A stretch of 64,000 bases of DNA, taken from Arthrobacter sp. 35W (GTDB lineage: Bacteria > Actinomycetota > Actinomycetes > Actinomycetales > Micrococcaceae). The translations under genes and the position numbers were made by a program. The notes beneath the pieces were generated by a model, which was given only the letters and a program-made list of their open reading frames with translations, ran no database searches and was not told where the DNA came from. This document shows positions 6,013 through 53,199 of the stretch, piece after piece. Position 1 is the first letter of the stretch. Each line of letters opens with the position of its first letter. The stretch spans positions 1,054,001 to 1,118,000 of the forward strand of contig NZ_KI519454.1 in assembly GCF_000482545.1 (NCBI RefSeq), written 5' to 3'.

Positions 6013-6131
6013 GGTCTGCGTGCAGAACTCGCCAAGCGCCCGTGTACCCCAACCTTCGAGCCCGTTTGGTGACAGCATCCGCTCCACCTAAAACCCCGCA
6101 CAACGTACCCATTGAACAGGAGACCCACACG

Positions 6132-13730: not shown

Positions 13731-13935
13731 ATGAGCGTCAAAACATTCATCTCGATCGACATGGAGGGCGTCGCCGGCGTCGCGACGTTTGACCAGGTCG
13801 CCGGCGGCTATGGCTATCCACGTGCGCAAGAATTGATGACCCTTGAGGTGAACGCCGCAATCGCGGGTGCCTTTGACGGGGTGCGGATGAGGTTGTCATC
13901 AACGATTCGCACGGCACGATGGACAACCTCAGCCC
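13731..13935 (+). pseudogene. Truncated M55 D-aminopeptidase (DppA-type)
   Basis: ATG 13731 follows GAAGGAGAGCTC. MSVKTFISIDMEGVAGVATF carries the Asp and Glu zinc ligands of the M55 family (DMEG). LEVNAAIAGAFDG follows, and then a one-base frame change near 13880 leads to ADEVVINDSHGTMDNL, which holds the histidine ligand. Similarity ends at about 13935, where a minus-strand resolvase fragment begins, so more than half of the usual 270 or so residues is missing. M55 enzymes remove N-terminal D-residues from short peptides, which fits the cluster. This copy is dead. Confidence 0.75.
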
Positions 13936-13987
13936 GGGTCCGGTTACTGATCAGATTGCGCTCAAATTCCGCAAGCGCGCCGAACAC
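13928..13987 (-). pseudogene. Serine recombinase (resolvase) scrap
   Basis: VFGALAEFERNLISNRTRAE is the conserved FxALAEFERxLIxxRT segment of Tn3-type resolvases and invertases. The flanking sequence in this frame shows no further similarity. It abuts the truncated M55 gene and probably marks the recombination event that broke it. Confidence 0.6.
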
Positions 13988-13989
13988 AG

Positions 13990-14579
13990 GCTGCGCTGAC
14001 GCTGCCGGAGTTGGAAAAGTGGTTGGTGCTTGCAGTAGCCGCTTGCCTCCGTACCAGGTCCCCAGTGCGGCGTCCCGCATCCCAGCTTTGACAAGAGAGC
14101 TGTCCCTGACCTCGCTGGCCCAAAGACGCCAGTCAGCACAACTCGCGTTATCAAACGGCAATCAGCGATCACGGGGCCGAAGAAATGGTGCTGTGCGGCC
14201 GATCTTTGCTTCCCGACATCCCAAGACGCAGGTCACCGTTGGATCGCTGGCTCGCCCAGTTTCGCCGGCAAACATTGTGGGCGAGGTTCCTGCTGCTGAA
14301 ACCAAGTCAAAGGTGATCGGAGGGGAAGAAGTGTGCCCGCTCATGGCGTGCCAGTGCGGGCCGCCTGCAGCATCCATGGGTGGCTTGACCGGCGGCGAGT
14401 TATGGGCAGCTTGCCGTCCGTGCGTGGATGTCCAGAACCGGGTCCAATTCGGGGCCCGGCAAGACTGCGTTTTTGCCGATGGAATCAGTTCAGCGCTAGT
14501 GCTCGACCGATGCCGCCATGGCGAAGAGTGGGTGCTTCCTCGACGTCGGTTGTCGGTTCGTCTTCCAGTTCGACGGAGC
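13990..14579. other. Spacer without recognised genes
   Basis: Low-similarity sequence between the resolvase scrap and the enoyl-CoA hydratase. Several short frames overlap on both strands, none with a recognisable motif or ribosome-binding site. It is probably debris of a mobile element. Confidence 0.4.
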
Positions 14580-24044: not shown

Positions 24045-24060
24045 GTTTGCGTCTTGTCTT

Positions 24061-26129: not shown

Positions 26130-26131
26130 GG

Positions 26132-27217: not shown

Positions 27218-27298
27218 ACTGGCTCCTCTGTCAGGTAGTCCAATGGAAACGAACGGATATGTTGGACTAACTGTCAATCTACGTCTTGATATGGTCAA

Positions 27299-27318
27299 CT
27301 CAATTGTCTACAACTGAG
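27299..27318. promoter_or_regulatory. Lrp/AsnC operator candidate
   Basis: CTCAATTGTCTACAACTGAG is a 20-base imperfect dyad (8 of 10 positions symmetrical). It lies in the 147-base divergent region between the dehydrogenase (start 27217) and the Lrp gene (start 27365). Length and A/T-rich centre fit an Lrp/AsnC-family site that could control both directions. Confidence 0.55.
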
Positions 27319-27364
27319 CATCTCGCCAATGTGATTGATCCAACCAGGAAGGCTGCTTGACATT

Positions 27365-28550: not shown

Positions 28551-29609
28551 ATGAAGAACATGATTTCATCGGCACCGCCCGATAGCCCAGACGCTGTGGC
28601 GGTTTCTGAGGGGCCTTTGCAGGTGGATGTAGTTGCACAGCCGGCAACGAAGGCCGCCAACACCAATCCCTGGGTGAGCTATCTGACCAGACGCCTCATT
28701 CGGCTAGTGATCTCAGTCGTTGTACTGGTCACGGCAGCGTATCTCATGGTGCGCTTGCTGCCGGGAGATCCCGCACGGCTTTCGCTTGGTCCTGAGGCCA
28801 CAGCCGAGCAGATCGCCGTCCGGCGAGCCGAACTCGGACTGGACGCGTCAGTGGTCACGCAGTATTTCCACTTCTGGGAGAACCTATTCCACGGTGATCT
28901 CGGAAAGTCATACAGCACGCGTCTTCCCGTGTTTGATGTCATTACCCAGCGGCTGCCAGCAACGCTGGAAATCTCGGTTATGTCGATCATCGTGATTCTC
29001 TTGGTCGGCATTCCGTTGGGCATGGCAATGGGTGAAGCGACACGCGGCGGCCGCAACAGGTGGCTGGACGCGATTTTCTCTAGTGTCACCGGTTTCCTGA
29101 CGGTCGCGCCGGTGTTCGTTATTGCGGCCATCTCGATATACATGTTCGCGATCTCCTCTCCGGTCTTCCCAGTGGCAGGACGTTCAGGTCCGTCGTCATA
29201 CGTACTTCCCGTCCTGGCACTGTCGCTTAGCTCGACCTGTGCTCTGGCCCGAATTGTTCGTGCCGAAACATTTAACGTGCTTGAGGCTGACTACGTCAGG
29301 ACTGCGAGGGCAAAACGAATGCGGAAGGCCCGACTCTTTTTTCACCATGTTCTGCCGAATCTGGTGACTCCGACTCTGACGTTCGCGGGCTTGCTGTTTG
29401 GCGGGCTGATTGCGGGCAGCGTCTTTGTCGAAACAGTGTTTGCCTGGCCGGGTATGGGGCCGGTGGTGGTTGGCTCCATCACGAATCGAGACTATCCCCT
29501 GGTACAGGGCATCGTTCTGGTTTATGGCGTCCTCATACTGCTGATCAATCTCGTAGTCGATCTCCTGATTGCGGCGTTTGACCCGCGCTCCCGAATCACA
29601 AAACTTTAG
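28551..29609 (+). CDS. dppB: Peptide ABC importer permease (DppB-type)
   Basis: 352-residue inner-membrane permease. An unusually long polar N-terminus of about 45 residues precedes the DppB-type start WVSYLTRRLIRLVISVVVLV, and LLPGDPARLSLGPEATAEQI follows the first membrane span as usual. Five or six hydrophobic segments follow, and the EAA-type loop is in DYVRTARAKRMRKARLFFHH. The last loop has ETVFAWPGMGPVVVGSI, typical of the family. It is the first gene of a five-gene plus-strand run and lies eight bases before the permease-ATPase fusion. The likely substrates are short peptides; here D-residue-containing peptides are inferred from the hydrolases downstream. Confidence 0.92.
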   Translation: MKNMISSAPPDSPDAVAVSEGPLQVDVVAQPATKAANTNPWVSYLTRRLIRLVISVVVLVTAAYLMVRLLPGDPARLSLGPEATAEQIAVRRAELGLDASVVTQYFHFWENLFHGDLGKSYSTRLPVFDVITQRLPATLEISVMSIIVILLVGIPLGMAMGEATRGGRNRWLDAIFSSVTGFLTVAPVFVIAAISIYMFAISSPVFPVAGRSGPSSYVLPVLALSLSSTCALARIVRAETFNVLEADYVRTARAKRMRKARLFFHHVLPNLVTPTLTFAGLLFGGLIAGSVFVETVFAWPGMGPVVVGSITNRDYPLVQGIVLVYGVLILLINLVVDLLIAAFDPRSRITKL

Positions 29610-29617
29610 AGGACCCG

Positions 29618-31411
29618 ATGACTATACTCACTACCGTCGCGCCGGCGACCCGGCGGATACGATCATTTGTTCACCAGATGCGAACACCGGCAGGAGCCAT
29701 CGCCGCTATCGGCACGGTCCTCTTGGTCGGGCTGGCGATCTTCGCTCCCGTGCTTTGGGGCGCCGAAGCAGCTGAGGTCAATGTCGATGTGATTGCTCGC
29801 GGGCCAAGTGCCGAGCACCTTCTGGGAACCGATTCTGCTGGCCGCGACATCCTGCTCCGCACCCTAGTAGCCGCGCGTACATCATTGATGTACGGCATGC
29901 TTGCGACCCTTATCGGCGTGACACTCGGCGTGATTGTGGGCTGCCTTCCGAGCATCCTGCCGCCGTGGATCGGCCGGCTCGTGACCGCGGTCGTCAACAT
30001 GCTCGTAGCGTTTCCCGCCCTGCTTCTGATTCTGTTCCTTGCGGTGTTTTTTGGGCAGGGTGCTACGGGGGCGGTCTTTGCGCTGGGATTGGCTATCGTG
30101 CCGAACATCGCAAGACTGTGCCAGACGATGACCGCGAGCGTCGTTGGACGGGATTTCGTTAGCGCTGCGAAAGTCCTCGGCGTGCCGCGGACAGCGATCC
30201 TGTTCCGGCACATCATCCCGAGCATCGCTGACGTTATTGTGGTCAACGCGACGATGGCGGCCGCCAGCAGCCTGACCGCGATGGCAGGATTGTCGTTCCT
30301 CGGAATAGGTCTGCAGGCTCCTGCGTACGATTGGGGCCGCCTTTTGTCCGAGGGTCTCGCCCGTATGTACGTGTCGCCCGCGGCCGCTTTGACGCCGGCA
30401 ATTGCTGTCACCCTGGCCGGAATCGTGCTGACCATGCTCGGTGACACCATCGGCCGCGCAGTCGGTGTGACCCCGGTTATCTCGATGCGCAAGCTGGCCG
30501 GTTTGCCCACCCGCTCGGCAAAGCCCGAGCCGGATAGGGGGGAGGCGCCGCATCCCGAAGCCGTTCTGTCGGTTCGCGATCTTCACGTGTCGTTCCCGGC
30601 TTTAGGCAAGTGGGTAACGCCGGTTCGCGGGGTAAGTTTCGATATTGCACGCGGAGAGCGTGTGGGAATCGTCGGGGAGTCGGGTTCAGGCAAGAGCCTC
30701 ACAGCCCTAGCTGTTGCTCAGCTCATCGAATACCCAGGAAGGGTCGAGGCAGACGCCATCGTCTTTGATGGGGTCGACTACGCCGGAATGAGTGAACGCG
30801 AAGTCACGTCCCATGCCGCTGACCTGGGTCTGAAGATGTCGATGGTGTTCCAAGACCCAATGTCCTCGCTCAATCCCTCGCTCCGCGTAGGTCCGCAAGT
30901 CGCTGAGACTGCCCTCCTCCACGGTGGAGGGATTCGAACACAGGCCAGCAATCAGGCCACAGATAGGCTAGCAGAAGTGGGCATCCAGAACCCCAAGATG
31001 CGAGCCCGCCAGTATCCGTTCCAATTCTCGGGTGGTATGCGGCAGCGCGCCATGATCGCCATGGGTTTGATGGGAACACCGAAGCTCATCATCGCCGATG
31101 AACCCACTACAGCATTGGACGCGACCGTTCAACGAACGGTGATGCAGGTCCTGGACCGCGTTGCCGTCGAACACGGGTCAGCGGTCATGTTCATCTCGCA
31201 CGACATTGCACTCGTGACCGGATTCTGTGAACGGGTTCTGGTGATGTACCACGGTGAAATTGTGGAAGACATATCAAGCGCCGACCTGGTCGAGGGGAGC
31301 GCCGTTCACCCCTATACGAAGGCTTTGATGGCCTCGATTCCCACACTGACGACCGACCGTTCGCGCCCGATGGCTACCGTTGCCGACTTCATGAAGGAGG
31401 ACAAGGCATGA
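29618..31411 (+). CDS. Peptide ABC importer permease-ATPase fusion (DppC-DppD)
   Basis: 597 residues combining two subunits. Residues 1-290 are a DppC-type permease (LLGTDSAGRDILLRTLVAAR; EAA loop FVSAAKVLGVPRTAILFRHI). Residues about 305-597 are the DppD ATPase, with Walker A GESGSGKS near 353-360, signature FSGGMRQR near 470, Walker B LIIADEPTTALD near 491-502, and the C-terminal oligopeptide-transporter ending VHPYTKALMASIPTL. Such fusions occur in other actinobacterial peptide/nickel importers. The stop overlaps the start of the partner ATPase by four bases. The fused arrangement fixes one DppD per permease. Confidence 0.92.
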   Translation: MTILTTVAPATRRIRSFVHQMRTPAGAIAAIGTVLLVGLAIFAPVLWGAEAAEVNVDVIARGPSAEHLLGTDSAGRDILLRTLVAARTSLMYGMLATLIGVTLGVIVGCLPSILPPWIGRLVTAVVNMLVAFPALLLILFLAVFFGQGATGAVFALGLAIVPNIARLCQTMTASVVGRDFVSAAKVLGVPRTAILFRHIIPSIADVIVVNATMAAASSLTAMAGLSFLGIGLQAPAYDWGRLLSEGLARMYVSPAAALTPAIAVTLAGIVLTMLGDTIGRAVGVTPVISMRKLAGLPTRSAKPEPDRGEAPHPEAVLSVRDLHVSFPALGKWVTPVRGVSFDIARGERVGIVGESGSGKSLTALAVAQLIEYPGRVEADAIVFDGVDYAGMSEREVTSHAADLGLKMSMVFQDPMSSLNPSLRVGPQVAETALLHGGGIRTQASNQATDRLAEVGIQNPKMRARQYPFQFSGGMRQRAMIAMGLMGTPKLIIADEPTTALDATVQRTVMQVLDRVAVEHGSAVMFISHDIALVTGFCERVLVMYHGEIVEDISSADLVEGSAVHPYTKALMASIPTLTTDRSRPMATVADFMKEDKA

Positions 31412-32226
31412 CTTCGCTCGAGTTTCGCAACCTGGTGGTCGATTTCGGGCGTGGACCCAAAACCGTCCATGCCGTCAAGAACGTAAGCTTCATCGTTCCC
31501 CAGGGAAGTACAGTCGGCGTTCTGGGCGAGTCAGGATCCGGAAAGTCCACAATAGCCCGTGTGGCAGTGGGGCTGGAGCACGCAACCTCCGGTGAGATCC
31601 TGCTCGATGGACATTCTCTGTTGCAGTCAAACCGGGCAGGACGGATGCATCGACGCCAGGTTCAAATGGTTTTTCAGGATCCATATTCGTCCCTAAACCC
31701 TCGGATGACCATCGGAGATTCAATCGCCGAGGGGCTGCATGCCAGCTACCGCAAATCCAAGCAACGAGTGCCCTCGCGTCGTCAGATAGAGGCAGAGACG
31801 CAGGAATTGCTCAGCCTTGTGGGCCTCGATTCTTCCTACGCCGCACACTACCCTCGGCGTTTGTCGGGGGGGCAGAGGCAACGGGTTGCACTGGCTCGGG
31901 CGCTTGGCGCAAAACCGTCCGTGTTGCTTGCTGACGAGATTACCTCTGCCCTGGATGTGTCGGTACAAGGAACGGTCCTCAACCTCTTTCGCAAACTCCA
32001 GTCCGAGCTTGGCTTCACGGCGTTGTTCATTTCGCACAACCTTGCTGTCGTCAGATATGTCTGTGACTACGTCGCAGTGATGGACAAGGGCGATCTGGTT
32101 GAGTTCGGGCCCGTCGATGAAATTCTCACTGCACCAAAGCACCCATCGACTCGTGCGCTGATCGAAGCGGTCCCCGAGATGGGCAAACCGTTGTTCGTCC
32201 CCGCTCATCGGGGAGTTGCCCGCTGA
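31408..32226 (+). CDS. dppF: Peptide ABC importer ATP-binding protein (DppF-type)
   Basis: 272-residue second ATPase of the importer. Walker A is GESGSGKST (about 40-48), signature LSGGQRQRVALARAL (about 152-166) and Walker B VLLADEITSALDVS. Here the usual DEPTS is DEITS, a mild variation next to the catalytic glutamate. The C-terminal oligopeptide ABC segment APKHPSTRALIEAVPEM is short but present. Its start overlaps the fusion gene stop (ATGA). With the fused DppD it gives the two-ATPase set usual for peptide importers. Confidence 0.92.
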   Translation: MTSLEFRNLVVDFGRGPKTVHAVKNVSFIVPQGSTVGVLGESGSGKSTIARVAVGLEHATSGEILLDGHSLLQSNRAGRMHRRQVQMVFQDPYSSLNPRMTIGDSIAEGLHASYRKSKQRVPSRRQIEAETQELLSLVGLDSSYAAHYPRRLSGGQRQRVALARALGAKPSVLLADEITSALDVSVQGTVLNLFRKLQSELGFTALFISHNLAVVRYVCDYVAVMDKGDLVEFGPVDEILTAPKHPSTRALIEAVPEMGKPLFVPAHRGVAR

Positions 32227-32305
32227 AGTGTCACCCGCGACGCACCTGGCTACACATACCCCACACCCCTCTCGAACGTCCTGCACAAACAAAGGAAATA
32301 GCACC

Positions 32306-33886
32306 ATGAAGGTTAGATACCTACCCGTTCTCGCCGTTGCGGCCGCCGGAGCTCTTGTTCTGACGGCCTGCAGCCCCAGCAGCAGCCCAGGAACGGGCCA
32401 GTCAGCGGCTGCTGTGACGGATGGCACCCTTAAATGGGCACTGTCGACAGATCCAGGAAACCTGTTTCCGCAGACTACTTCCTATTCCGACACGCGCCAG
32501 CTAGTTGCTTTCGGATACGACAGCCTCATCGCTGTCGATGACAATGGCCAGCCCAAGCCGTGGTTGGCGGAGAAATGGGATGCGTCATCAACGGAAGTGA
32601 CGTTTACGCTCAAAGAAGGAACAACGTGCGGAGACGGCTCGCCGCTGACCGCGCAGACTGTGGCAGACAACTTCACCTGGATCACAGATACCAAGAATTC
32701 TTCACCCGTGGTGGGTCTATTTGTGCCGTCCGGAACGACGGCCAAAGCGGACAACTCGGCAAGGACAGTCACGCTGACATCCCCGACACCGAATCCATTC
32801 TTGCTCGAATTGCTTGGACAAGTGTTCATCGCATGTGGCAAAGCGATCGCCAGCCCGGACAAGTACTCGTCCGCGTTTGACGGAACAGGGCCCTACACCC
32901 TGTCCGACGTGAGGCCAGGCGAGAGTTACACGCTGACGCGTCGGGACGACTACACCTGGGGCCCAGACGGGACCACGTCCAAGACTGCCGGTCTTCCCAA
33001 AACCGTCACGGTCTCCGTGGTGGGTGATGACACCACGCGTGCCAACCTGCTGTTGGCAGGCAGCATTGACGCCGCAACAGTCGTGGGACCGGATGCTGCC
33101 CGGCTCGATGCCCAAGGCATGTCAGCGTTGCCATTGAAGTCCGGCTCAACGGAGTTGTTCTTCAACCAAGCCGCTTCCCGACCAGCCTCTGACCCAGCTG
33201 TCCGCAAGGCCCTTGTGCAGAGCACCAACACCAAGGTAATGGCCGATATCTTGGCCGGCGGCCAGGGCGCACCATCGCAGTCGCTCCTAATCGGGAAACC
33301 GACGACCTGCGCCATCGATGACGTGTACAACTCCGCTCCAGCGTTTGATACCGCCGCAGCTGCGAAGACACTGGACGATGCAGGGTGGAAGGTCGGAGCA
33401 GGCGGCGTTCGAAGCAAGGACGGACAGGCGCTGTCCATCAAGCTCGTGTACCGAAACAGCACCGAAAAGGCCTCAGCATTCGAGGTCTTGGCCAGTGAGT
33501 GGAAGAAACTCGGCGTGGATGTAACTCTGAAGGGCGCCGATCAGGCTGTGCTCAACGATCTTCTGTCCTCAGGCACCGGAGACTGGGACGTCGTTGATTG
33601 GTACGTAGGGGCACCGTTCCCGACGATGTTGGTCCCGTTCTTCAGCGGCTCCACATCGAGCAACTTCTCGAAGATCAACAACGCCACCTACAACGAGCAC
33701 GTCATTCTGGCCAGCAACAAGCTCGGCATCCAAGGATGCCCGGATTGGCAGATTGCGGAGCGCGCACTGGTATCGGACGCCGACATCCTCCCTATCGGAT
33801 GGATCAACAACAGCACCTATACAAGAAAGTTCACCGCGAGTCGGTCATTCCAGATCGAACCTTGGTCGATTCGGCAGTCGGGCTAA
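32306..33886 (+). CDS. Peptide-binding lipoprotein (family 5)
   Basis: 526 residues from ATG 32306, preceded by AAAGGAAA. A lipoprotein signal MKVRYLPVLAVAAAGALVLT leads to lipobox LTAC. The mature protein shows family 5 features: LKWALSTDPGNLFPQTTSYS near the start, NGQPKPWLAEKWDASSTEVT, a KEGTTCGDGSPLTAQTVADN block and ATRANLLLAGSIDAA-like central segments. It binds the peptide outside the membrane and delivers it to the DppB/DppCD/DppF complex. It lies 79 bases after dppF. A preference for D-containing peptides would be inference from the cluster. Confidence 0.92.
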   Translation: MKVRYLPVLAVAAAGALVLTACSPSSSPGTGQSAAAVTDGTLKWALSTDPGNLFPQTTSYSDTRQLVAFGYDSLIAVDDNGQPKPWLAEKWDASSTEVTFTLKEGTTCGDGSPLTAQTVADNFTWITDTKNSSPVVGLFVPSGTTAKADNSARTVTLTSPTPNPFLLELLGQVFIACGKAIASPDKYSSAFDGTGPYTLSDVRPGESYTLTRRDDYTWGPDGTTSKTAGLPKTVTVSVVGDDTTRANLLLAGSIDAATVVGPDAARLDAQGMSALPLKSGSTELFFNQAASRPASDPAVRKALVQSTNTKVMADILAGGQGAPSQSLLIGKPTTCAIDDVYNSAPAFDTAAAAKTLDDAGWKVGAGGVRSKDGQALSIKLVYRNSTEKASAFEVLASEWKKLGVDVTLKGADQAVLNDLLSSGTGDWDVVDWYVGAPFPTMLVPFFSGSTSSNFSKINNATYNEHVILASNKLGIQGCPDWQIAERALVSDADILPIGWINNSTYTRKFTASRSFQIEPWSIRQSG

Positions 33887-33956
33887 TCACGACGGCACCC
33901 TGACCCGGCACAGTCCGGGCCACGTTCTATGGCACCCACCCACGTAAGGATCAGCA

Positions 33957-35354
33957 ATGACGTTCCAACTCCCCGACGATTTTCTTGCCTCGCAGGCATG
34001 GCAGAACCGGATCGATGCTCTGGCAAAAAAGCACTCCGTACCTGGTGTGCAGGTGGGGGTGATTGCATTGGACGGAGAGGGCCGACCAGACATGCGTGTC
34101 ATGACCACGGGCGTGACGAGTCTCGCCACCGGAATTGAGGTAACTCCCGACACACTCTTCCAATACGGGTCCATCAGCAAAGTCTGGACAACTACGCTGA
34201 TCATGCAGCTCGTCGATGAAGGCAAACTGACGCTGGAGACCCCTGTGGTGGAGATCCTGCCGGAGTTTTCCATCGCCGACATCGTGAACACCAAAGAGAT
34301 CACAATCCGCCAACTCCTTACGCATACCAGCGGCATAGATGGAGATCTGTTCACCGATACCGGCGACAACGACGACTGCTTGGAGAAATATGTCGATGAA
34401 CTGGCCACCGCCATCAGCGTCACTCCGCCCGGCGGTCATCTAAGCTACAGCAATTCGGCATTTGGAGTCGCCGGCCGGATCATCGAAGTCCTGCGTGGCA
34501 AGCCATGGGATGAAGTCGTCGTGGAGAGGCTTCTCCGGCCGCTGGGGCTAACGCACGTCATTACACGGACGAAGGAGGCACCGCTGTTCAGTACCGCCGT
34601 CGGCCACCTCGCCAATCCAGACACTGAATCAGCCGACAAGGTTATTCCCACGACCCGATGGATGCTGCCACGATCCCTAGGACCTGCCGGCAACGTCACC
34701 GGCTCCATGTCGTCGCTACTGACATTCGCGGCGGCGCATCTACGGGACGGCTTGGCGCCGAGCGATGAACGCATATTGTCCGTGGAGTCCGCGAGGCTCA
34801 TGCGGACACCACAGTTTGATCTGACTGCGGACTCGACAGTGGACCAAGCCTGGGGGCTGGGCTGGGTTCTATCGGATTGGGGAACTGTGAGGTCGGCCTA
34901 TCATGGCGGAGCGACGATCGGGCAGATCGCCCGGCTTCAGACGTTCCCGGAACTGCAAATGGCGATCGGTGTGCTGACGAACTCGCGCGGAGGCTCGGGA
35001 CTAGCTGACGAGATCGAGACTGCAATCGGTGTCGAACTGGGGTTGCCCAGCCCCAAGCCTGTGGCCGAGTTGCCTCCCGAGTCATGCGACCTGACACAGA
35101 TTCTGGGGGCGTATGAGTCGACATCCAACCGCTATGAGCTGGCCCTCGATGAAGAGGGGCGGTACTACCTCACCAGCATCGCCAAAGAGGATGTCAACGG
35201 TGAGCCGCAAGCTCCACCATTTCCTGTCGTTCCTTTGTCAAGCACCAGGTTCCTCATTGAAGTGGACGGAAAGTCACACGAATTCACGCATCTCCTGATC
35301 GACGGAAATCCTTACCTCTTCAGCACCCGCTTGTACAAACTCACGAGCGACTAG
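33957..35354 (+). CDS. S12-family serine hydrolase (D-aminopeptidase/beta-lactamase fold)
   Basis: 465 residues; no signal peptide, so probably cytoplasmic. The catalytic set is Ser72/Lys75 in GSISKVW, Tyr164/Asn166 in YSN and His316/Gly318 in YHGG, all in the right order for S12 (class C beta-lactamase-like) enzymes. After about residue 370 there is an extra beta-sheet domain (GAYESTSNRYELALDEEGRY) as seen in D-aminopeptidase-type relatives. The core is very close to the C-terminal half of the fusion protein at 6132, sharing long identical stretches such as IMQLVDEGKL and LLTHTSGIDGD. It sits between the peptide importer and a dipeptidase, so cleavage of imported D-residue peptides is the favoured role. 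Esterase or amidase activity is the alternative. Confidence 0.88.
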   Translation: MTFQLPDDFLASQAWQNRIDALAKKHSVPGVQVGVIALDGEGRPDMRVMTTGVTSLATGIEVTPDTLFQYGSISKVWTTTLIMQLVDEGKLTLETPVVEILPEFSIADIVNTKEITIRQLLTHTSGIDGDLFTDTGDNDDCLEKYVDELATAISVTPPGGHLSYSNSAFGVAGRIIEVLRGKPWDEVVVERLLRPLGLTHVITRTKEAPLFSTAVGHLANPDTESADKVIPTTRWMLPRSLGPAGNVTGSMSSLLTFAAAHLRDGLAPSDERILSVESARLMRTPQFDLTADSTVDQAWGLGWVLSDWGTVRSAYHGGATIGQIARLQTFPELQMAIGVLTNSRGGSGLADEIETAIGVELGLPSPKPVAELPPESCDLTQILGAYESTSNRYELALDEEGRYYLTSIAKEDVNGEPQAPPFPVVPLSSTRFLIEVDGKSHEFTHLLIDGNPYLFSTRLYKLTSD

Positions 35355-35358
35355 ACGC

Positions 35359-35398
35359 TGTGCTGGGCAGGACCACATCAGTCGCCCTGCCCAGCACA
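35359..35398 (+). terminator. Strong hairpin after the S12 hydrolase gene
   Basis: TGTGCTGGGCAGG (35359-35371) and CCTGCCCAGCACA (35386-35398) are exact reverse complements over a 14-base loop, starting four bases after the S12 stop. There is no T-tract, so it may slow or stabilise rather than end transcription of the importer message. Confidence 0.6.
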
Positions 35399-35417
35399 CA
35401 TCCCAGGAGTCACATCC

Positions 35418-35543
35418 ATGGCACAACCGAATCGTCTTGATGCCGCCAACGTTCGCCGGTCACAGCTGAATGGGGACTCGCTCGCCCTTGTCGCATGCGA
35501 GCCGCCGTCCGACGATGCCCCGGACCTGGCTGCCCCGACATGA
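35418..35543 (+). CDS. Possible 41-residue ORF
   Basis: ATG 35418 is preceded by AGGAG with good spacing. The product begins MAQPNRLDAANVRRSQLNGD and ends ACEPPSDDAPDLAAPT. I do not recognise it. It may be a real small protein or the stub of a deleted peptidase gene between the S12 hydrolase and the dipeptidase. A faint resemblance to the NG/DD segments of M55 enzymes is too weak to assign. Confidence 0.3.
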   Translation: MAQPNRLDAANVRRSQLNGDSLALVACEPPSDDAPDLAAPT

Positions 35544-35726
35544 AGGTGGGCATCGAACAAGCCCTCGCGGGCTGTTCCATCCTGAGAATGCACTGTGGTG
35601 TCGAGGCGTTGAAGGGCGTCTCTCGGCTCATCACGGAAGTTGAGCGGAGCTGCACGCCTACGTCGCGGCGCTCTCAAAGTCGCACGGGCCAGCCTTTCAA
35701 TGCTTCAAATAAACAATCGAACCTCA

Positions 35727-36824
35727 ATGAAACTGGAACACCACATGCAAACTTCCAACACTCGGCCCCCCGCACTACGCCATCCTGAGGCCATAAGGGC
35801 ATTCGACCTCACCCCTCTAATCGATGGTCATAACGATCTCGCGCACGCAGCACGAGGCGCGGCAAACTACTCAGTCGAGGGGCTCGAGAAGGACTCCCAT
35901 TTCCAAACCGACATCGGAAAGCTGCGCGGTGGCGGAGTCGGTGCGCAGTTCTGGTCCGTTTACGCTCCAGGGGAAATACCTGAAGCAGATGCCGTGCAAT
36001 ACACGTTTGAGCAAATCGACTTCATCTACCGGATGATCCGCCGGTATCCGCAGACCTTTGAGCTTGCCCGCACCGGAGACGATGTTCGACGTATCTGGCA
36101 GAAGGGAGGTATCGCGTCTTTGCTGGGAGCCGAAGGCGGACATAGCATCGGCAGTTCCCTGGGCGTTCTGCGAATGATGGCACGGGTCGGACTGAGATAC
36201 ATGACCTTGACACACAATTCAAATACGTCGTGGGCTGATTCCGCGACGGATAGCACGGTCCATGGTGGACTCACTGACTTTGGCCGGGAGGTCGTTAGGG
36301 AGATGAATGCCTTGGGAGTGCTGGTCGATCTTTCCCATGTCTCGCCTGACACGATGCGCGATGCGATAAGGACCTCTTCTGCACCGGTCATCTTCAGTCA
36401 CTCCTCATGCAGGGCTCTCTGTGATCACCCGCGCAATGTGCCAGATGACGTTCTCCGTTCCTTGGCTGACAACGGCGGCGTCATTATGGTCGCCTTCGTG
36501 CCAATGTTCCTCGATGAGGAATACAAGAGCTGGTTTGACGGGGGGCGCAATGGTCCCCGCCCGCCAGTGACGGTCGAGCACGTGGTCAAGCATATTGAGC
36601 ATGCCCGAAACATCGCTGGCATCGACCACATAGGTCTGGGAAGCGACTATGACGGTTTCGGTGATTTCCCTGACGGCTTGCACGACACTTCGGCTTTCGC
36701 AGTGCTCATTGACCGGCTTGCTGAGCGTGGTTGGACCTCAGCCGAACTCGCCAAATTGATGGGCGATAACCTGCTGCGCGTTCTGGACGCTACGAGCATG
36801 GAATCGGTTTCGTCGACGCAGTAG
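35727..36824 (+). CDS. Membrane-dipeptidase-type M19 metallopeptidase
   Basis: 365 residues from ATG 35727; ATG 35745 is also possible and the ribosome-binding site is weak for both. The binuclear zinc site is complete: His35/Asp37 in DGHNDL, Glu136 in LLGAEGGHS, His204 in DLSHVSPD and His225 in FSHSS. Bacterial M19 enzymes hydrolyse dipeptides and, unusually, accept a D-residue at the C-terminal position. Together with the S12 hydrolase this would reduce imported peptides to free amino acids, including D-forms. There is no signal peptide despite the family name, so cytoplasmic action is likely. It converges with the pucR gene at 37019. Confidence 0.92.
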   Translation: MKLEHHMQTSNTRPPALRHPEAIRAFDLTPLIDGHNDLAHAARGAANYSVEGLEKDSHFQTDIGKLRGGGVGAQFWSVYAPGEIPEADAVQYTFEQIDFIYRMIRRYPQTFELARTGDDVRRIWQKGGIASLLGAEGGHSIGSSLGVLRMMARVGLRYMTLTHNSNTSWADSATDSTVHGGLTDFGREVVREMNALGVLVDLSHVSPDTMRDAIRTSSAPVIFSHSSCRALCDHPRNVPDDVLRSLADNGGVIMVAFVPMFLDEEYKSWFDGGRNGPRPPVTVEHVVKHIEHARNIAGIDHIGLGSDYDGFGDFPDGLHDTSAFAVLIDRLAERGWTSAELAKLMGDNLLRVLDATSMESVSSTQ

Positions 36825-37018
36825 GTGGTACCCGGTTTTGTCCCCGGTTGGTGCAAGTCTGCCTGGAATTCGCTCGAACAAGAGAGGGTTGCGGGCACTT
36901 GCAAAACCGGCCGTTCTCATCAGCAATCCCACGATTTCCCGTCCGCAGGCAAGGCGTATCTTGAGGCCTGCGAGGTAACGTACAGGGATACAGTCACCTT
37001 GCGAACGCTTGCTCGCAG

Positions 37019-38662
37019 TCAGTCAACATCACGCCGCAGCCGACTAAGTCGAAATTCGAGCATGGCCGCGAACCGCTCGTCAGGGTCGTCAAGGTTCACC
37101 TGCGCAATATCGGCGGCGCGACGAAGCCGGTATCGGAAGGTATTGCGGTGCAAGTCCAGCGCCGCTGACGCGCCCAGGGCGTTTCCGAAACTGTCCAGCC
37201 ACAGCTCGAGTGCTTCTTCCAGAGAGGTACCGTGTTGTTTGTCGTAGTGACGGATTCGGGCGACAGGGCCATCAACGAGGCCGCCCTCATTTCGCAATTG
37301 GTCACCAATGTCCAGTAGAAGCGCGTCCATTTGGAGATCGGTGAATAGTGCGACACGGCTCCCAGGGCCCCGTTTCAGGACGCGCAGACTTCTGTCCACA
37401 TCATTGCGGGAGCGGGCAAGCTCCGTCGGATCAGCGGAGTCCGCAACGCGACCAAGCCCGATGACGGCGCCGCCGGCTCTGTCCGGTGTCCGGTCGAGGA
37501 AGTCTTTCGAAACCCTCAGTGCCATAGATATGAGGTTTGTGGCGCCCTGCCGTGTCATCGAAGGCATGATCGCGTAACACACGTCGCCGACAAGCGCGGC
37601 TACGGCCCCCGGAGCAGCCACCGAAAGATGAAATGCAAATGCATGAGCGGTCCGTTCCAGGATCTGTTGGCGTGTTTGATCAGACGACGCATCACCGGCC
37701 GTATCGCCAAGCAGGGACAGGCCAAGCACCACTACTGTTCGTTGCACGAGGCGCAGACGTTCAATGGCCCCTATCGCGGCCTGTCCGGACGCCAAAGCGG
37801 ACGCGATGAGATCTGACCGAACCTGACGGTCAACATCCGAGCTCACCCTGTGACGCAACAGTTGAAGTGCAACGACCTTCGCGGCATCAACCAGAATCTG
37901 TTCCTTTTCGGGACTCAATGGCTCCCGAACAGCGACCCAAATGGAACCGAGTACTTGATTTCCGGCGCGTATTGCAATCGCAACCCGGGGGAGTCCGGCC
38001 TCTCCCAAAATTTGGGGGGTGTCGAAGAACACTGGTTTCTCACTGGAGTACAGTCGCTTGAAAACGCCGGCCCGTTCCTGGGCTTGCATGGCATATTGGG
38101 GAACTACACGCCCCAGAATTGTCTCAATGCGTGATTGGTCGGCTTCATTCTGGCGACCAGAGAATGCCAGGATTTGGGAGGAGCGGTCTTCGATAGTAAT
38201 TGGCGCATCGAGGAGTGCTCCGATCGCGTTGGCTAGAGCGAACGTGTCCTCCGCAGGCAGCCCTGCCAGGAGTTCCTCCGCGCCGGCGCTGGAGGCCAGC
38301 AGGGATCGCAGAAGAACAACGAGTTGGGTCCATGTCGCACCAGTTGAAAGTCCGAGCAGGACGACGCCACTTCGTTCAATGGTGGCGCGCAGCTCGGCCG
38401 GAAGATTAAGTGGTGTACGAAGCACCAAGGCGGGGATCTGGTTCGCTACGGCGCGATCAATCAATCCCGGCAGATGTTCGACGTCAGCATAGATGCACAG
38501 AAGCATGACCCCGGGTCGCAGCTCCGCCTGTTCGCGCGGATCGTCGATGGCAACGTCAGTGACCAGAGTAGTCCGGTCCATGTTGCCGGCAACCATCTCC
38601 AGCAGGGTGCCTGCCAGGTTGCTCACGACACTATCAAGTCGGGTTCCGTGACTAATCATCAT
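37019..38662 (-). CDS. PucR-family transcriptional regulator (intact D-peptide module)
   Basis: About 547 residues when started at the ATG pair 38659-38662 (MMISHGTRLDSVVSNLAGTL), where similarity to the left-cluster PucR begins; the longer frame adds 48 unsupported residues. The N-terminal PucR domain contains LRTPLNLPAELRATIERSGV and VVLLRSLLASSAGAEELLAG. The C-terminal helix-turn-helix is ALDLHRNTFRYRLRRAADIA followed by RFAAMLEFRLSRLR. It stands on the minus strand between the dipeptidase and the M20-GNAT-racemase operon. Divergence from 39164 makes it the natural regulator of that operon, and possibly of the importer. Effector unknown. Confidence 0.88.
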   Translation of the reverse strand: MMISHGTRLDSVVSNLAGTLLEMVAGNMDRTTLVTDVAIDDPREQAELRPGVMLLCIYADVEHLPGLIDRAVANQIPALVLRTPLNLPAELRATIERSGVVLLGLSTGATWTQLVVLLRSLLASSAGAEELLAGLPAEDTFALANAIGALLDAPITIEDRSSQILAFSGRQNEADQSRIETILGRVVPQYAMQAQERAGVFKRLYSSEKPVFFDTPQILGEAGLPRVAIAIRAGNQVLGSIWVAVREPLSPEKEQILVDAAKVVALQLLRHRVSSDVDRQVRSDLIASALASGQAAIGAIERLRLVQRTVVVLGLSLLGDTAGDASSDQTRQQILERTAHAFAFHLSVAAPGAVAALVGDVCYAIMPSMTRQGATNLISMALRVSKDFLDRTPDRAGGAVIGLGRVADSADPTELARSRNDVDRSLRVLKRGPGSRVALFTDLQMDALLLDIGDQLRNEGGLVDGPVARIRHYDKQHGTSLEEALELWLDSFGNALGASAALDLHRNTFRYRLRRAADIAQVNLDDPDERFAAMLEFRLSRLRRDVD

Positions 38663-39163
38663 CGACCATTCGTTCGCTCCCTGCTTCCAATTATCAACTC
38701 TACATGCACCGTCTTCGTACTTCCGCACATGATCATCGAAGCAATTGGTGTTTTTTGACGGTGTTTTCACCGGGCATCTCCACCAAACTGGATCCATGAG
38801 CGGCATTCAGAATCGCAGACAGTTTTCCCCGCTTGATCCTTGGCGTTATCGCCTGGGGGTCGTCACCGCGCCGTAAACCAATCCATTTCTTCACCAGGCT
38901 CGTATGTCCACGACACCGTTCCATTCAGCGCGGACCGGCAATCTGGTGTACACATCCGGGCAAACTGTCGGTGGATCGAGGACCTATCGTCATCCCGGGC
39001 TAGTGGCTTCGCTACCTATGAGCTATCCCGTTGAAATTGATCTCATCATCGAAGTGATCTGATCTGACAAGGGCTCCTTCTCAACGTGATGCCGTCAATA
39101 CCGAGCTTGTCGAATGGTTCGGGAATCATGTGCACTCCATCCCACGAATGAAAGGTCTCCGGT
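38663..39163. promoter_or_regulatory. Divergent promoter region, pucR / D-amino acid operon
   Basis: 501 bases without a recognisable gene between the divergent pucR (start 38662) and M20 (start 39164) genes. It should hold both promoters. No strong dyad was spotted by eye. The 18-base palindrome that precedes the other pucR gene is not present here. Confidence 0.45.
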
Positions 39164-40333
39164 ATGACAACAGAACGCCTTGACCACTTCCACGCTCTCA
39201 CTGACCGAATGCTCCAAGACATCCGTATCCTCGTTGAAACCGAGTCGCCATCCGCTGATCTGAACGCCGTCGCCCATAGCGCAGACAAGGTGTTGTCTCT
39301 CGGCGAACGTGTCCTGGGTGTTGAAGGGGAACGAATCGTTATAGATGGCTGCACGCACCTTAAATGGAGGCTTGGTGAGGGGGAACGCCGAGTCCTGATC
39401 CTCGGGCATCACGACACCGTTTGGCCACTCGGAACGTTGGCGAAGCACCCCTACGCCCAAGAGGGAGGCGTCCTCCGTGGCCCGGGAAACTTCGACATGA
39501 AGGTTGGAGTTGCCATGGCCTTCTATGCCGTATCAACCCTGGACCCGGGATCCTCAGTGACGATCCTGATAACCGGCGACGAAGAAATTGGCTCACATAC
39601 TTCGAGAAACCTTATTGAGTCCGCCGCGGCCGAATGTGCCGCTGTCTTTGTACTTGAGGCTTCGGCCGATGGTGGCGCCCTCAAAATCGGTCGCAAGGGA
39701 ATGTCTGATTATCGTGTGAGCGTCTCGGGTAGGGCTGCCCACGCGGGGCTCGAACCCGAGAAAGGAATCAACGCGGCCGTAGAGATGTCCCATCAGGTAC
39801 TGCGAATTGCGGCCCTGGCTTCGGAACCGCAAGGGACGAGTGCGGTCCCCACAGTGCTTTCGGCAGGGACCACGACAAATACCGTACCTGCAACCGCAGA
39901 CATATCTGTGGACGTCCGGGCATGGACTCAGGAAGAGCAAGACAGGGTGGACATCGGAATGCGGTCCTTGACGGCCGTCTTGCCCGGCGCAGTTCTTAGT
40001 ATCGCCGGCGGGGTAAACCGCCCTCCGATGGAAAAAACTATGTCGTCCTCGCTATTCGAGAGTGCCCGCGCTGTGGCTCTGACCCTTGGATTGGGAGAGC
40101 TCAGAGGCGCGAAAGTGGGAGGCGGCTCGGACGGCAACTTTACCGCCGGACTCGGAATACCCACTCTCGACGGGCTCGGTGCAGTTGGTGGCGGAGCCCA
40201 TGCAGACAACGAACACTCAGTCGTAGCCGAAATTCCACGGAGAACTGCCCTCGTGGCCGGCCTGATCAAGCACACTCTTTTGCCGGTCGCTGAGACCAAC
40301 GACGAGCCAATAACTAGTGCGATGGGACGGTGA
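39164..40333 (+). CDS. M20-family hydrolase, probable N-succinyl-L-amino acid desuccinylase
   Basis: 389-residue zinc hydrolase of the M20/carboxypeptidase G2 group. Ligand and catalytic motifs are His82/Asp84 in GHHDTVWP, Asp111 in GNFDMKVG, Glu140/Glu141 in TGDEEIGS, Glu165 in VLEAS and the C-terminal histidine in GGAHADNEHS. A dimerisation domain (GRAAHAGLEPEKGINAAVEM) is present, as usual. It is followed after ten bases by the GNAT gene and then the racemase. In the published Geobacillus pathway an M20 enzyme in the same company hydrolyses N-succinyl-L-amino acids. A general glutamate-carboxypeptidase-like peptidase is the alternative. Confidence 0.85.
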   Translation: MTTERLDHFHALTDRMLQDIRILVETESPSADLNAVAHSADKVLSLGERVLGVEGERIVIDGCTHLKWRLGEGERRVLILGHHDTVWPLGTLAKHPYAQEGGVLRGPGNFDMKVGVAMAFYAVSTLDPGSSVTILITGDEEIGSHTSRNLIESAAAECAAVFVLEASADGGALKIGRKGMSDYRVSVSGRAAHAGLEPEKGINAAVEMSHQVLRIAALASEPQGTSAVPTVLSAGTTTNTVPATADISVDVRAWTQEEQDRVDIGMRSLTAVLPGAVLSIAGGVNRPPMEKTMSSSLFESARAVALTLGLGELRGAKVGGGSDGNFTAGLGIPTLDGLGAVGGGAHADNEHSVVAEIPRRTALVAGLIKHTLLPVAETNDEPITSAMGR

Positions 40334-40343
40334 CTGACAACTC

Positions 40344-41246
40344 ATGATCAACCAAGCTCGAGACATGTCGCAAATCATTTCAGACCCTTCAAATCATTCC
40401 TTGGGCCACACTTCGACCGCCCGTCAATCTGCATTGCGCGCAGCCTCGCTCGCCAATGTTGCGATACGCCCGTTGAGGCATCTGGATGACTTCATCGCTT
40501 GCGAAGCTCTCTTCGACTCCATTTGGCATCCGGAGCCCGGATCCTCACTAATGGCCAAAGAATTGCTACGAGGCATCAGCTCCGCCAACAGCTACGTATC
40601 GGGTGCATTCCAAACAGGGCAACTTGTTGGAGCCTGCGTCGGGTTCTGGGGGCCACCGGAATCACGGAGCATGCACAGCCACATCGCCGGAGTCAGCGGC
40701 AAAGCGCGCGGCGTCGGTTATGCGTTGAAGCTGGACCAGCGAGCCCATGCCCTGGAGAGCGAAGTGGACACCATCACGTGGACATTTGACCCTCTGGTTC
40801 GCCGGAACGCGTTCTTCAACTTCCACAAACTTGGCGGTATGGCGTCCCAGTATCTGGTCAACTACTACGGCTCCATGCTCGACGATATCAACGGAACCGA
40901 CGAGTCAGACCGGCTCCTCCTTGAATGGAATCTTGCGAGCCCGGGCGTGATCCGGCGCTGCGATGCAACGCCGGGAACAAGTACGCCGCCCACGGCGGAC
41001 CACAACGGCGTGGCCGCATTAACCATAGGCCGCGCTGGCCAACCCGTGGTGGCTGATACCAGCGCATCTACGTTGTTGGTCGGGGTTCCCGAAGACATCG
41101 AAAACCTTCGACACGTTGACCCAGGACTTGGACGAGAGTGGCGCACTGCAGTACGAGAAGTTCTGGCCGGCGCCCTGTCCCGTGGCGGACGTGTCGAAGG
41201 ATTTGAGCCACAAACAGGCAGCTACATCGTGACGAGAGGAAAGTAA
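40344..41246 (+). CDS. GNAT-type acyltransferase, probable D-amino acid N-succinyltransferase
   Basis: 300 residues. The GNAT core runs roughly 30-200: VAIRPLRHLDDFIACEALFD, GQLVGACVGFWGPPE, MHSHIAGVSGKARGVGYALK (acyl-CoA pyrophosphate loop region) and DTITWTFDPLVRRNAFFNFH. The C-terminal part is specific to this subgroup. It is four bases upstream of the racemase and 10 bases downstream of the M20 gene. In the characterised pathway a GNAT enzyme succinylates D-amino acids with succinyl-CoA. The left-cluster homologue is fused in frame to its racemase, which supports shared substrate flow. The acyl donor is inferred, not visible in the sequence. Confidence 0.82.
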   Translation: MINQARDMSQIISDPSNHSLGHTSTARQSALRAASLANVAIRPLRHLDDFIACEALFDSIWHPEPGSSLMAKELLRGISSANSYVSGAFQTGQLVGACVGFWGPPESRSMHSHIAGVSGKARGVGYALKLDQRAHALESEVDTITWTFDPLVRRNAFFNFHKLGGMASQYLVNYYGSMLDDINGTDESDRLLLEWNLASPGVIRRCDATPGTSTPPTADHNGVAALTIGRAGQPVVADTSASTLLVGVPEDIENLRHVDPGLGREWRTAVREVLAGALSRGGRVEGFEPQTGSYIVTRGK

Positions 41247-41249
41247 TTC

Positions 41250-42356
41250 ATGAAAATCGAGGCCATAGAAATCCGGCGTGTCAAGATGCCCTTGGTGGCA
41301 CCGTTTCGCACGTCGTTCGGAACACAGCACGAGAGAGAGATGCTGCTCCTGCGCGTGCGAACCCCCGGTGCGGATGGTTGGGGCGAATGTGTCGCCATGT
41401 CCGATCCGCTGTACTCATCTGAATACGTCGACGGAGTCGAGGACGTCCTGCGACGATTCCTCATCCCGGACCTCCTTGCCATGGGGGACGTGACAGCCAA
41501 CGCCGTCGGACCCAGGCTCCACAAATACAAGGGCCACCGCATGGCCAAGGCAGCGCTGGAAATGGCCGTCATGGACGCCGAGCTCCGGAACCAGAACATC
41601 TCGTTCGCGAATAGTCTCGGCGCACTCCGCACGCACGTCCCGAGCGGCGTCTCAGTTGGCATCATGGATTCGCTCCCGGAACTGCTTGAAGTCGTGGGCA
41701 AGTACCTGAGTGACGGCTACGCACGAATCAAACTCAAAATCGAACCAGGCTGGGACACCGCACCCGTCCGTGCTGTTCGGGAGAAGTTCGGAGATGACAT
41801 CTTGCTTCAAGTGGATGCAAACACGGCGTACACGCTGCGTGACGCTCACCATTTGGCAAAGCTGGACGCCTTCGATCTGTTGCTGATCGAACAGCCACTC
41901 GACGAAGAAGATATGGTCGGGCACGCCGAGCTGGCCCGAAAGATCCGGACACCTATATGCCTGGACGAATCAATCGTGTCCGCCAGCACAGCGGCGGCAG
42001 CCATCAAGCTCGGTGCATGCGAGATCGTCAACATCAAACCGGGACGAGTGGGCGGATACCTTGAGGCTCGGCGCATCCATGACGTGTGCGTTGCCCTTGG
42101 CGTCCCGGTGTGGTGCGGTGGCATGCTCGAAACCGGCTTGGGCCGAGCCGCCAACGTGGCTCTTGCAGCGCTGCCCGGCTTTACGCTTCCCGGTGACGTA
42201 TCCGCTTCAGATCGCTTCTACATCGAAGATGTGACCGAGCCTTTCATACTCGAGAATGGCGGCCTAACCGTTCCGAATGGCCCGGGCCTAGGCGTAACCC
42301 CCCTGGAGGATCGTCTTAAAGAGTTCACCCTGACAGCGGAAAACATCGGGGCATAG
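41250..42356 (+). CDS. N-succinylamino acid racemase / o-succinylbenzoate synthase-like enolase superfamily enzyme
   Basis: 368 residues, to my recollection the same length as the Amycolatopsis N-acylamino acid racemase, with its key residues at the same numbers: Lys161 and Lys163 in ARIKLKIEPGWD, metal ligands Asp189 (QVDANTAY), Glu214 (LLIEQPL) and Asp239 (CLDESIVS), and Lys263 in NIKPGRVGGY. The two lysines take and give the alpha-proton on opposite faces, so both epimerase and o-succinylbenzoate synthase chemistry are possible. No other menaquinone genes are near, while an M20 hydrolase and a GNAT transferase are directly upstream. That makes N-succinylamino acid racemisation the favoured role. 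The gene ends 56 bases before a strong hairpin. Confidence 0.92.
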   Translation: MKIEAIEIRRVKMPLVAPFRTSFGTQHEREMLLLRVRTPGADGWGECVAMSDPLYSSEYVDGVEDVLRRFLIPDLLAMGDVTANAVGPRLHKYKGHRMAKAALEMAVMDAELRNQNISFANSLGALRTHVPSGVSVGIMDSLPELLEVVGKYLSDGYARIKLKIEPGWDTAPVRAVREKFGDDILLQVDANTAYTLRDAHHLAKLDAFDLLLIEQPLDEEDMVGHAELARKIRTPICLDESIVSASTAAAAIKLGACEIVNIKPGRVGGYLEARRIHDVCVALGVPVWCGGMLETGLGRAANVALAALPGFTLPGDVSASDRFYIEDVTEPFILENGGLTVPNGPGLGVTPLEDRLKEFTLTAENIGA

Positions 42357-45717: not shown

Positions 45718-45851
45718 AGACAATTTCCTCCATAGTGGGGCGGTCCCTTCCCGGCATACCAGTGCCAACCGTGGCACGGACGTGCTTGCGCGGGAAACTT
45801 CCGTCCATTCTTTCTTAAGGGACTTTATATTGCCAGTCAAGTTAGTCTGGG
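45718..45851. promoter_or_regulatory. Divergent promoter region, LacI-like / ROK
   Basis: 134 bases between divergent genes. GTGCCA and TGGCAC (45770-45785) form a small dyad with a four-base spacer, and TATATT near 45826 could be a -10 box toward the ROK gene. A site for the ROK repressor is expected here. Confidence 0.45.
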
Positions 45852-53198: not shown

Positions 53199-53199
53199 C

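Follow-up and report, generated by a model that had tools for sequence, protein, structure and literature searches.

A probable accessory gene cluster for D-amino-acid peptide assimilation in Arthrobacter sp. 35W

Gene content of the locus

We analysed a stretch of 64,000 nucleotides from Arthrobacter sp. 35W (contig NZ_KI519454.1, positions 1,054,001 to 1,118,000), referred to here as the window, and within it a block of ten genes at window positions 28551-42356. A sequence-only reading had interpreted this block as a self-contained unit that imports D-residue peptides and converts their D-amino acids irreversibly to the L form. All ten reading frames that it had listed are in place, and its family assignments were confirmed, as was the close spacing of the last three genes. 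The block comprises:

28551..29609, + strand: ATP-binding cassette (ABC) permease, Dpp/Opp/Nik B type (BPD_transp_1, Pfam PF00528, E 2.8e-40)
29618..31411, + strand: fusion of a C-type permease and a D-type ATPase (PF00528 at residues 100-281, ABC_tran at 337-498)
31408..32226, + strand: second ATPase, with an oligo_HPY tail (ABC_tran 2.6e-32, oligo_HPY 1.1e-6)
32306..33886, + strand: family-5 solute-binding lipoprotein, SBP5 (SBP_bac_5, 1.6e-57)
33957..35354, + strand: S12 serine hydrolase (PF00144, 1e-55)
35640..36824, + strand: M19 dipeptidase (PF01244, 6.8e-115)
37019..38806, - strand: PucR-family regulator, divergent from the M20 gene (HTH_30, 1.4e-15)
39164..40333, + strand: M20 hydrolase, carboxypeptidase-G2-like, candidate N-succinyl-L-amino acid desuccinylase (PF01546, 2.4e-21)
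40344..41246, + strand: GNAT-fold acyltransferase with an extra C-terminal part, candidate D-amino acid N-succinyltransferase (assigned by fold only)
41250..42356, + strand: enolase of the N-succinylamino-acid racemase (NSAR) / o-succinylbenzoate synthase (OSBS) group (1sja match)

The M20, GNAT and racemase genes form an operon, with 10 bp between M20 and GNAT and 3 bp between GNAT and the racemase, and are thus encoded together as in the Geobacillus-type converter of D- to L-amino acids. Since the PucR gene lies antiparallel between the two groups, the importer, S12 and M19 genes do not belong to this operon. A promoter scan of the window found 0 sites (2.2 in shuffled sequence) and a terminator scan 9 terminator-like sites (5.1 in shuffles); neither was used further.

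Importer and peptidases

With an SBP_bac_5 lipoprotein, two permease domains and two ATPase domains, the first four genes hold the complement of a family-5 ABC importer. The SBP5 reading frame opens at 32216, and the ATG at 32306 is likely the true start, because the same 526-codon (1581-bp) gene is annotated in a 92%-identical copy (NZ_CP012477.1). Its hydrophobic segment ends in the lipobox LTAC and is the only export-like segment among the seven proteins checked by hydropathy, a crude test by which neither S12 nor M19 has a hydrophobic N-terminal segment. In the PDB, SBP5 matches 6lu2 ('substrate binding protein') and NikA-type proteins best, and it also matches peptide-binding proteins. 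An orthologue of the permease-ATPase fusion is annotated as 'dipeptide/oligopeptide/nickel ABC transporter permease/ATP-binding protein'.

The S12 protein carries SISK at 72, YSN at 164 and HGG at 316, the SxxK, YxN and HxG motifs of S12 peptidases, and its PDB matches include IS11, 6ksu, the PBP cyclase Ulm16, alkaline D-peptidase and DD-carboxypeptidase. M19 matches 3id7, 'Dipeptidase / renal dipeptidase' (E 3.7e-105), with which its DGHNDL, GAEGGHS, DLSHVS, FSHSS and SDYDG motifs align. We take the metal site of this family to be HxD plus Glu/His, and 3id7 to be Streptomyces Sco3058, which presumably takes L-D dipeptides.

Predicted converter enzymes

The transferase gave no Pfam match even at E<=10, and its identity therefore rests on its fold. 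An AlphaFold2 model built on 32 sequences reached a mean pLDDT of 91.7, and Foldseek returned GNAT acetyltransferases as top matches with probability 1.00, most of them over ~160-190 alignment columns of the 300 residues; as modelled, the protein has a GNAT fold. The M20 protein resembles carboxypeptidase G2 (1cg2, E 1.7e-36), an enzyme that cuts N-acyl bonds of L-amino acids.

The racemase aligned without a gap to Amycolatopsis NSAR 1sja over residues 1-363 (E 1.6e-175), and the same residues match 1sja, 7s8w and 4a6g, each at E <= 4e-174; the source strain of 1sja and 7s8w is presumably Amycolatopsis sp. T-1-60. K161, K163, D189, E214, D239, K263 and R266 (numbering as in 1sja) are invariant across 10 aligned sequences. 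Among these residues, which include the KxK motif, we take two to be catalytic lysines, three to be metal ligands and R266 to be linked to NSAR specificity. Judged by its sequence, the predicted racemase is a member of the Amycolatopsis NSAR/OSBS group of the enolase superfamily; its score against the DgcA model was 88.9 bits, for a cut-off of 400.

The racemase is distinct from the menaquinone gene

NCBIfam labels the window racemase menC (TIGR01928, 307.9 bits, cut-off 200.65), and the same label stands on 46 of the 60 plasmid records listed (64 records with a match in all). To the sequence-only reading, a racemase acting only as OSBS in menaquinone synthesis would have been fatal. The genome, however, has a separate actinobacterial menC (432.5 bits, cut-off 288), and menC exceeded the cut-off in all 23 genomes of the genus, this one included; one internal stop is present in 9 of the matches, the window genome's own not being among them. 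GNAT, by comparison, is present in 5 of the 23, again counting this genome. Furthermore, the neighbours of the racemase are GNAT and M20 and no men genes, whereas a 45%-identical relative lies in a men operon and exemplifies the OSBS context. As a menC scores over the cut-off in all 23 genus genomes, menaquinone synthesis does not explain the window racemase, and we rejected it as the role of this gene.

Recurrence of the set around related racemases

We collected 80 NSAR-anchored loci, the best 80 of 575 relatives obtained by scanning genome contigs with an NSAR alignment. A codon-scored caller, its codon table derived from matches to the window proteins, was applied to these loci and to the 60 GNAT-anchored loci described below, and the called genes were clustered; 40 hand-picked stretches in GNAT-bearing genomes served as controls. 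The clusters found in the 80 NSAR-anchored loci were NSAR (76), GNAT (64), ABC ATPase (42), M20 (41), PucR (35), permease (25), S9-S12 (18), SBP5 (17) and S12 (13), every other family occurring in at most 8 and M19 in 6 (by clustering, with Pfam run on ten representatives). When coverage and identity thresholds were applied, GNAT was counted in 65 loci, M20 in 42, the full importer in 20 and M19 in 8. Importer and M20-GNAT-NSAR occurred together in 18 of the 80 loci and in none of the 40 controls, so that their association is above chance. All 18 of these full-set loci have an S9/S12 peptidase, 14 have PucR and 4 have M19, combinations that were likewise found in 0/40 controls. Nearly full flanks were available for 49 loci; the importer is present in 16 of these, the converter in 29 and both in 14. 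The co-occurrence on which the sequence-only reading depended is thus seen in other genomes.

Within the genus, importer and S9/S12 genes adjoin GNAT in 5/5 of the GNAT-bearing genomes. In two of them (G300 and G301) the order is SBP5-permease-fusion-ATPase-S9S12-M20-GNAT-NSAR, and in G301 an intact M55 peptidase gene follows NSAR (Pfam E 4e-91; NCBIfam DppA 207 bits, cut-off 430). A third genome, G308, has an intact M55 next to GNAT. Searching with the intact M55 protein gave matches in 0/80 NSAR-anchored, 0/60 GNAT-anchored (see below) and 0/40 control stretches, and only in the Arthrobacter loci L243, L261 and L264. In G308 (L260:11256-13621) we also observed, close to importer and S9 genes, a GNAT 50% identical to that of the window. 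Its neighbour on the opposite strand is an enolase that shares 28% identity with NSAR; NSAR may have given way to another racemase there.

Searches anchored on the transferase and on the importer

An order-wide search found GNAT in 67/297 genomes at 73 places, and 60 of the 71 places outside the window's own genome formed a GNAT-anchored set. M20 was present in 17 of these 60 loci, compared with 0/40 controls (p 5.8e-5), and NSAR in 39. Together with the importer and M19 counts given below, this indicates that the converter core is the stable part, which importer and peptidases join in a minority of cases. At one locus (L073, genome G084), M20 and GNAT are adjacent and no NSAR match was found in the 20-kb stretch.

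In the same 297 genomes we searched from the importer side with the permease-ATPase fusion, scoring 4 candidates per genome, and obtained 19 places in 15 genomes. The four best-scoring, one being the window itself, adjoin GNAT/NSAR. We viewed 14 of the other 15: L223, L225, L227 and L230 adjoin S9/S12 genes, and the rest showed importer genes only, among the families searched. In two of these four (L225:789-2117, - strand, and L230:799-1974, - strand), the place of NSAR is taken by an enolase whose best matches, below cut-off, are the L-Ala-D/L-Glu epimerase and DgcA models. The combination of importer, S12 and epimerase-like enolase in one family of the order is possibly a sister pathway.

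In a tree of the fusion (39 rows) the NSAR-linked label was clustered, requiring 4 changes against a mean of 11.7 after shuffling, with 0 of 500 shuffles as low. In the NSAR tree (94 rows), the importer label, set by hand, needs 15 changes, at least 8 of them by starred branches; bootstrap support was not yet stable, and a locus truncated by a contig end may be wrongly scored as lacking the importer. Left out of this tree were L265, L237, L149, L155, L121, L110, L154 and L161, the plasmid loci L246, L252 and L257, and the GNAT-anchored loci except the three with an importer. We read these changes to mean that one functional set was assembled, or lost, more than once.

Plasmids and other phyla

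The 754-kb plasmid of Arthrobacter sp. ERGS1:01 has a region that matches the window version of the block at 92.1% identity over 97% of 13.9 kb. On this plasmid, M20 and GNAT are separated by another S12 gene, a partial match to M20 and an M19-like stretch without an entry in the plasmid table. No other finding ties S12 to the converter as directly as this S12 gene within the converter operon.

From the 64 plasmid records we chose 16 annotated loci by hand for viewing. The full set, of the window type or a Streptomyces type, was found in ERGS1:01, Streptomyces NBC_00376 and SYP-A7193; Streptomyces NBC_00984 has M20, GNAT (via tblastn), NSAR, PucR and S12, with no importer in view. In three of the five Deinococcus plasmid loci viewed (Deinococcus ficus, D. 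psychrotolerans and one QL22 plasmid) the order is NSAR-GNAT-permease-permease-SBP-S12, accompanied by an amidohydrolase or 'D-aminoacylase' and, in D. ficus, by M19; relative to the window, the permeases are 26-27% and the NSAR 42-44% identical. Lysinibacillus and the 'Stenotrophomonas' record discussed below have a peptide MFS transporter-M20/amidohydrolase-GNAT-NSAR order. Pseudochrobactrum has an oligopeptide ABC set, a gamma-glutamyltransferase and M20 by NSAR, with no GNAT listed, and the Nitratireductor locus is a sugar-acid context.

Two records call for comment in their own right. A 28-kb 'Pseudomonas fluorescens' plasmid (L254, NZ_CP100662.1) carries a men operon and a yteA-family sporulation gene and looks like Bacillus DNA. 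A record filed under Stenotrophomonas rhizophila (L252, CP031730.1) shares the order PutP, HflX, peptide major facilitator superfamily (MFS) transporter, GNAT, NSAR, ComX with a Lysinibacillus plasmid (L259, NZ_CP130332.1), and is perhaps mislabelled or contaminated.

Proposed pathway and alternative explanations

What was observed directly is the content and order of the genes, the protein folds and motifs, the SBP5 export segment, the separate menC and the recurrence of the set; from this we infer a route whose imported compound, chemical steps, regulation and peptidase location are all proposals. The lipoprotein SBP5 would capture a peptide and the ABC importer would take it in; S12 and M19 in the cytoplasm, perhaps joined by an intact S9-S12 fusion (see below), would cut it into D- and L-amino acids, S12 at D-residue bonds and M19 at L-D dipeptides. 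GNAT would then transfer a succinyl group from succinyl-CoA onto the D-amino acid, NSAR would racemise the N-succinyl-D to the N-succinyl-L compound, and M20 would strip succinate from the L form only, so that the reaction is pulled one way. PucR would control the genes. We consider it likely, from sequence comparison, that the block is an accessory and probably horizontally moving cluster for assimilating D-amino-acid peptides. This part of the sequence-only reading is supported in that importer, peptidases of D-residue-type families and M20-GNAT-NSAR recur as a set and menC is separate. Peptidoglycan fragments, one of the sources it had named, are less likely, since the known NSAR group prefers hydrophobic residues.

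Several observations weigh against the D-peptide reading. The 80 NSAR loci were picked by similarity to the window NSAR, and the set thus leans to close kin; the full set is absent from 62 of them and from all but the 14 mentioned of the 49 with nearly full flanks. The controls hold no full importer and no converter, yet gave single matches to permease (1), fusion (2), ATPase (1) and S12 (1). In the GNAT-anchored loci the full importer was found in 3/60 (0/40 controls), the single importer subunits in 3/60 each compared with 1, 2, 1 and 0 of 40 (p 0.47, 0.69, 0.47 and 0.21, no significant enrichment), and M19 in 0/60. With the importer in 20/80 and M19 in 8/80 NSAR loci, the terms 'self-contained' and 'one unit' are too strong as a general rule. 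Moreover, the window fusion sits on a long branch in a weak fork, with no firm placement among the NSAR-linked importers, and the annotation of the three Deinococcus stretches lists no ATPase gene. Elsewhere NSAR and GNAT are accompanied by different transporters or by no transporter, as in Priestia, which has amidohydrolase, GNAT and NSAR without an importer. Finally, according to the accessible part of one study (PMC4215206), what the first-described Amycolatopsis enzyme does biologically is OSBS, others in the group doing both reactions, from which it follows that sequence alone does not decide the activity of the racemase. This statement and the order-wide GNAT result slightly lowered our confidence in a D-peptide unit.

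Part of this evidence would also fit a real converter that serves free D-amino acids, with importer, S12 and M19 as neighbours for ordinary peptide or peptidoglycan scavenging. GNAT is indeed far more frequent than the full importer around NSAR (65 versus 20 of 80), the importer is rare around GNAT, and in D. radiodurans, the second QL22 plasmid and Sulfitobacter the ABC components beside NSAR and GNAT are different ones, which also counts against the D-peptide reading. We nevertheless regard this explanation as unlikely, because importer, peptidase and converter stand together in 18/80 NSAR loci, in 5/5 GNAT-bearing genus genomes and in 3/5 Deinococcus loci, and because a second S12 lies inside the ERGS1:01 converter operon. 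A role in dismantling a D-residue antibiotic as defence, not food, is suggested by S12 relatives such as alkaline D-peptidase and PBP-type cyclases and by the location of several clusters on plasmids, some near transposases; importing a toxic peptide would however be odd, the L-amino acid end product would point to assimilation, and a second copy in the window has been left to decay, which makes defence improbable.

The importer might instead carry a metal-opine or nickel-type ligand and the block serve metal acquisition. The best NCBIfam matches of SBP5 are of the nickel/opine type, including NikA and CntA, a further point against the D-peptide reading, and its PDB matches include NikA-type proteins. 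All of those NCBIfam scores are far below cut-off, however, no opine-enzyme Pfam match was found in the ten block proteins, and S9/S12 peptidases accompany importer and converter in 18/18 loci, so that we hold metal acquisition to be very improbable. Scarcely credible is a racemase that makes o-succinylbenzoate for menaquinone, as public records have it: its menC score and the Amycolatopsis role speak for it, the separate menC genes (nine of the 23 matches with one stop) and the GNAT and M20 neighbours against it.

Extending the D-peptide reading beyond the genus, we tentatively propose, and would give it somewhat less than an even chance, that a dedicated D-peptide feeding pathway, passed on partly by plasmids, was assembled independently in at least two phyla, the Actinomycetota and the Deinococcota, and that in it an importer, changing D-acting peptidases (S12, S9-S12, M19, M55, D-aminoacylase-like) and a succinyl-driven converter act as one unit.

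Relation to known systems and significance

The converter core itself is known. The Geobacillus kaustophilus NSAR pathway, said to have been described by Sakai et al. in 2006, reportedly consists of a GNAT succinyltransferase, NSAR and an M20 desuccinylase. The window shares these three enzyme classes in neighbouring genes and the same proposed one-way D-to-L conversion; it differs in that its operon adjoins a family-5 importer, S12, M19 and PucR, that its M20 is carboxypeptidase-G2-like and that its biochemistry is a prediction. In Bacillus subtilis, the dpp operon combines a family-5 importer with the M55 D-aminopeptidase DppA. Importer and D-specific peptidase are the likeness here, whereas dpp has no GNAT-NSAR-M20 converter and the window has an M55 remnant only. 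As for Amycolatopsis NSAR/OSBS, the gapless 363-residue alignment contrasts with a difference in status, the Amycolatopsis enzyme being a characterised, promiscuous racemase/OSBS and that of the window a predicted one.

The use of NSAR with an L-succinylase from Geobacillus kaustophilus is reported in the accessible part of a review (PMC7431475). The DgcN-DgcA D-glutamate pathway, as far as the accessible text of its reports goes (PMC10845958, PMC11747546), likewise acylates a D-amino acid and racemises the N-acyl compound; it uses acetyl and glutamate, and that text names candidate D-Glu transport genes and no cluster with peptidases. Hydrolysis of D-containing peptides by a Rhodobacteraceae strain is stated in the abstract of PMC11747546, and D-peptide use as such is therefore already in print. 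The L-Ala-D/L-Glu epimerase loci YcjG/YkfB, going by the available portion of PMC5808125, also place an enolase-superfamily epimerase beside peptidases for D-residue peptides, but epimerise the intact dipeptide, with no acylation or deacylation. We found no account of importer, D-peptidases and converter as a unit in the open-access literature searched, although absence from print is not thereby established; what appears to be new is their joining, their recurrence and the menC label.

This label is a repeated problem, in which the name menC stands on what would be a catabolic racemase. If the two-phyla proposal is correct, many menC-labelled genes in Actinomycetota and Deinococcota would be converter racemases, and soil bacteria would routinely feed on nonribosomal and other peptides containing D-residues. 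The cluster also suggests what many promiscuous NSAR/OSBS enzymes may do in the cell. Peptides with D-residues, as found in nonribosomal antibiotics, cell walls and aged organic matter, are thought hard to break down, and a complete, portable pathway leading from their uptake to L-amino acids would show which organisms consume them, and by what means. The cluster further offers a genetically defined test system and may supply D-acting peptidases and L-selective desuccinylases.

A second, partly decayed set and the surroundings of the block

A second set of related genes, of which the decayed copy lies 26 kb away, spans positions 5925-14000, beyond the block that the sequence-only reading had covered:

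5925..9479, + strand: intact S9/S12 fusion (PF00326 and PF00144; motifs GYSYGG and SISK)
9773..11410, + strand: second PucR regulator, of the type adjoining NSAR elsewhere (homologue of at least 40% identity in 29/80 NSAR loci)
11440..13400, - strand: decayed GNAT-NSAR pair (one TAG in GNAT; frame change in NSAR, with matches in two frames)
13731..14000, + strand: truncated remnant of an M55 D-aminopeptidase (PF04951 profile positions 2-49 only)

The S9/S12 fusion type sits between importer and M20 in many relatives, and the M55 remnant is 76% identical to the intact M55 beside NSAR in G301; searching the loci with its two short pieces gave no match. The second set looks like the remains of a G301-type module. 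Its S9-S12 gene lies 19 kb upstream of the importer genes and may still work for the intact set.

Between both sets (14580-27868) lies a catabolic group of the branched-chain/propionate type, with genes for enoyl-CoA hydratase, PrpC-, PrpB- and PrpD-like proteins, thiolase, an SDR protein, acyl-CoA dehydrogenase, 2-oxoacid dehydrogenase E2, E1b and E1a, a Leu/Phe/Trp-type dehydrogenase and an Lrp regulator. This group could burn hydrophobic L-amino acids. We considered its leucine dehydrogenase (LeuDH), 2-oxoacid dehydrogenase and methylcitrate genes as part of the unit and rejected them, LeuDH, E1a, E2 and PrpD being found in 0/80 NSAR-anchored, 0/60 GNAT-anchored and 0/40 control stretches.

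Just past the racemase is a Mutator-family transposase (43829-44746) without the first 131 profile positions. G+C is 0.58-0.60 across 20-44 kb and 0.60-0.66 in the other 4-kb steps of the window, which together with the transposase suggests an acquired island. Further on, 44842-58999 holds a sugar locus, possibly for mannan, with LacI-type and ROK regulators, phosphomannose isomerase, acetyl xylan esterase, a BadF-type ATPase, GH113, GH2 and a sugar-binding protein.

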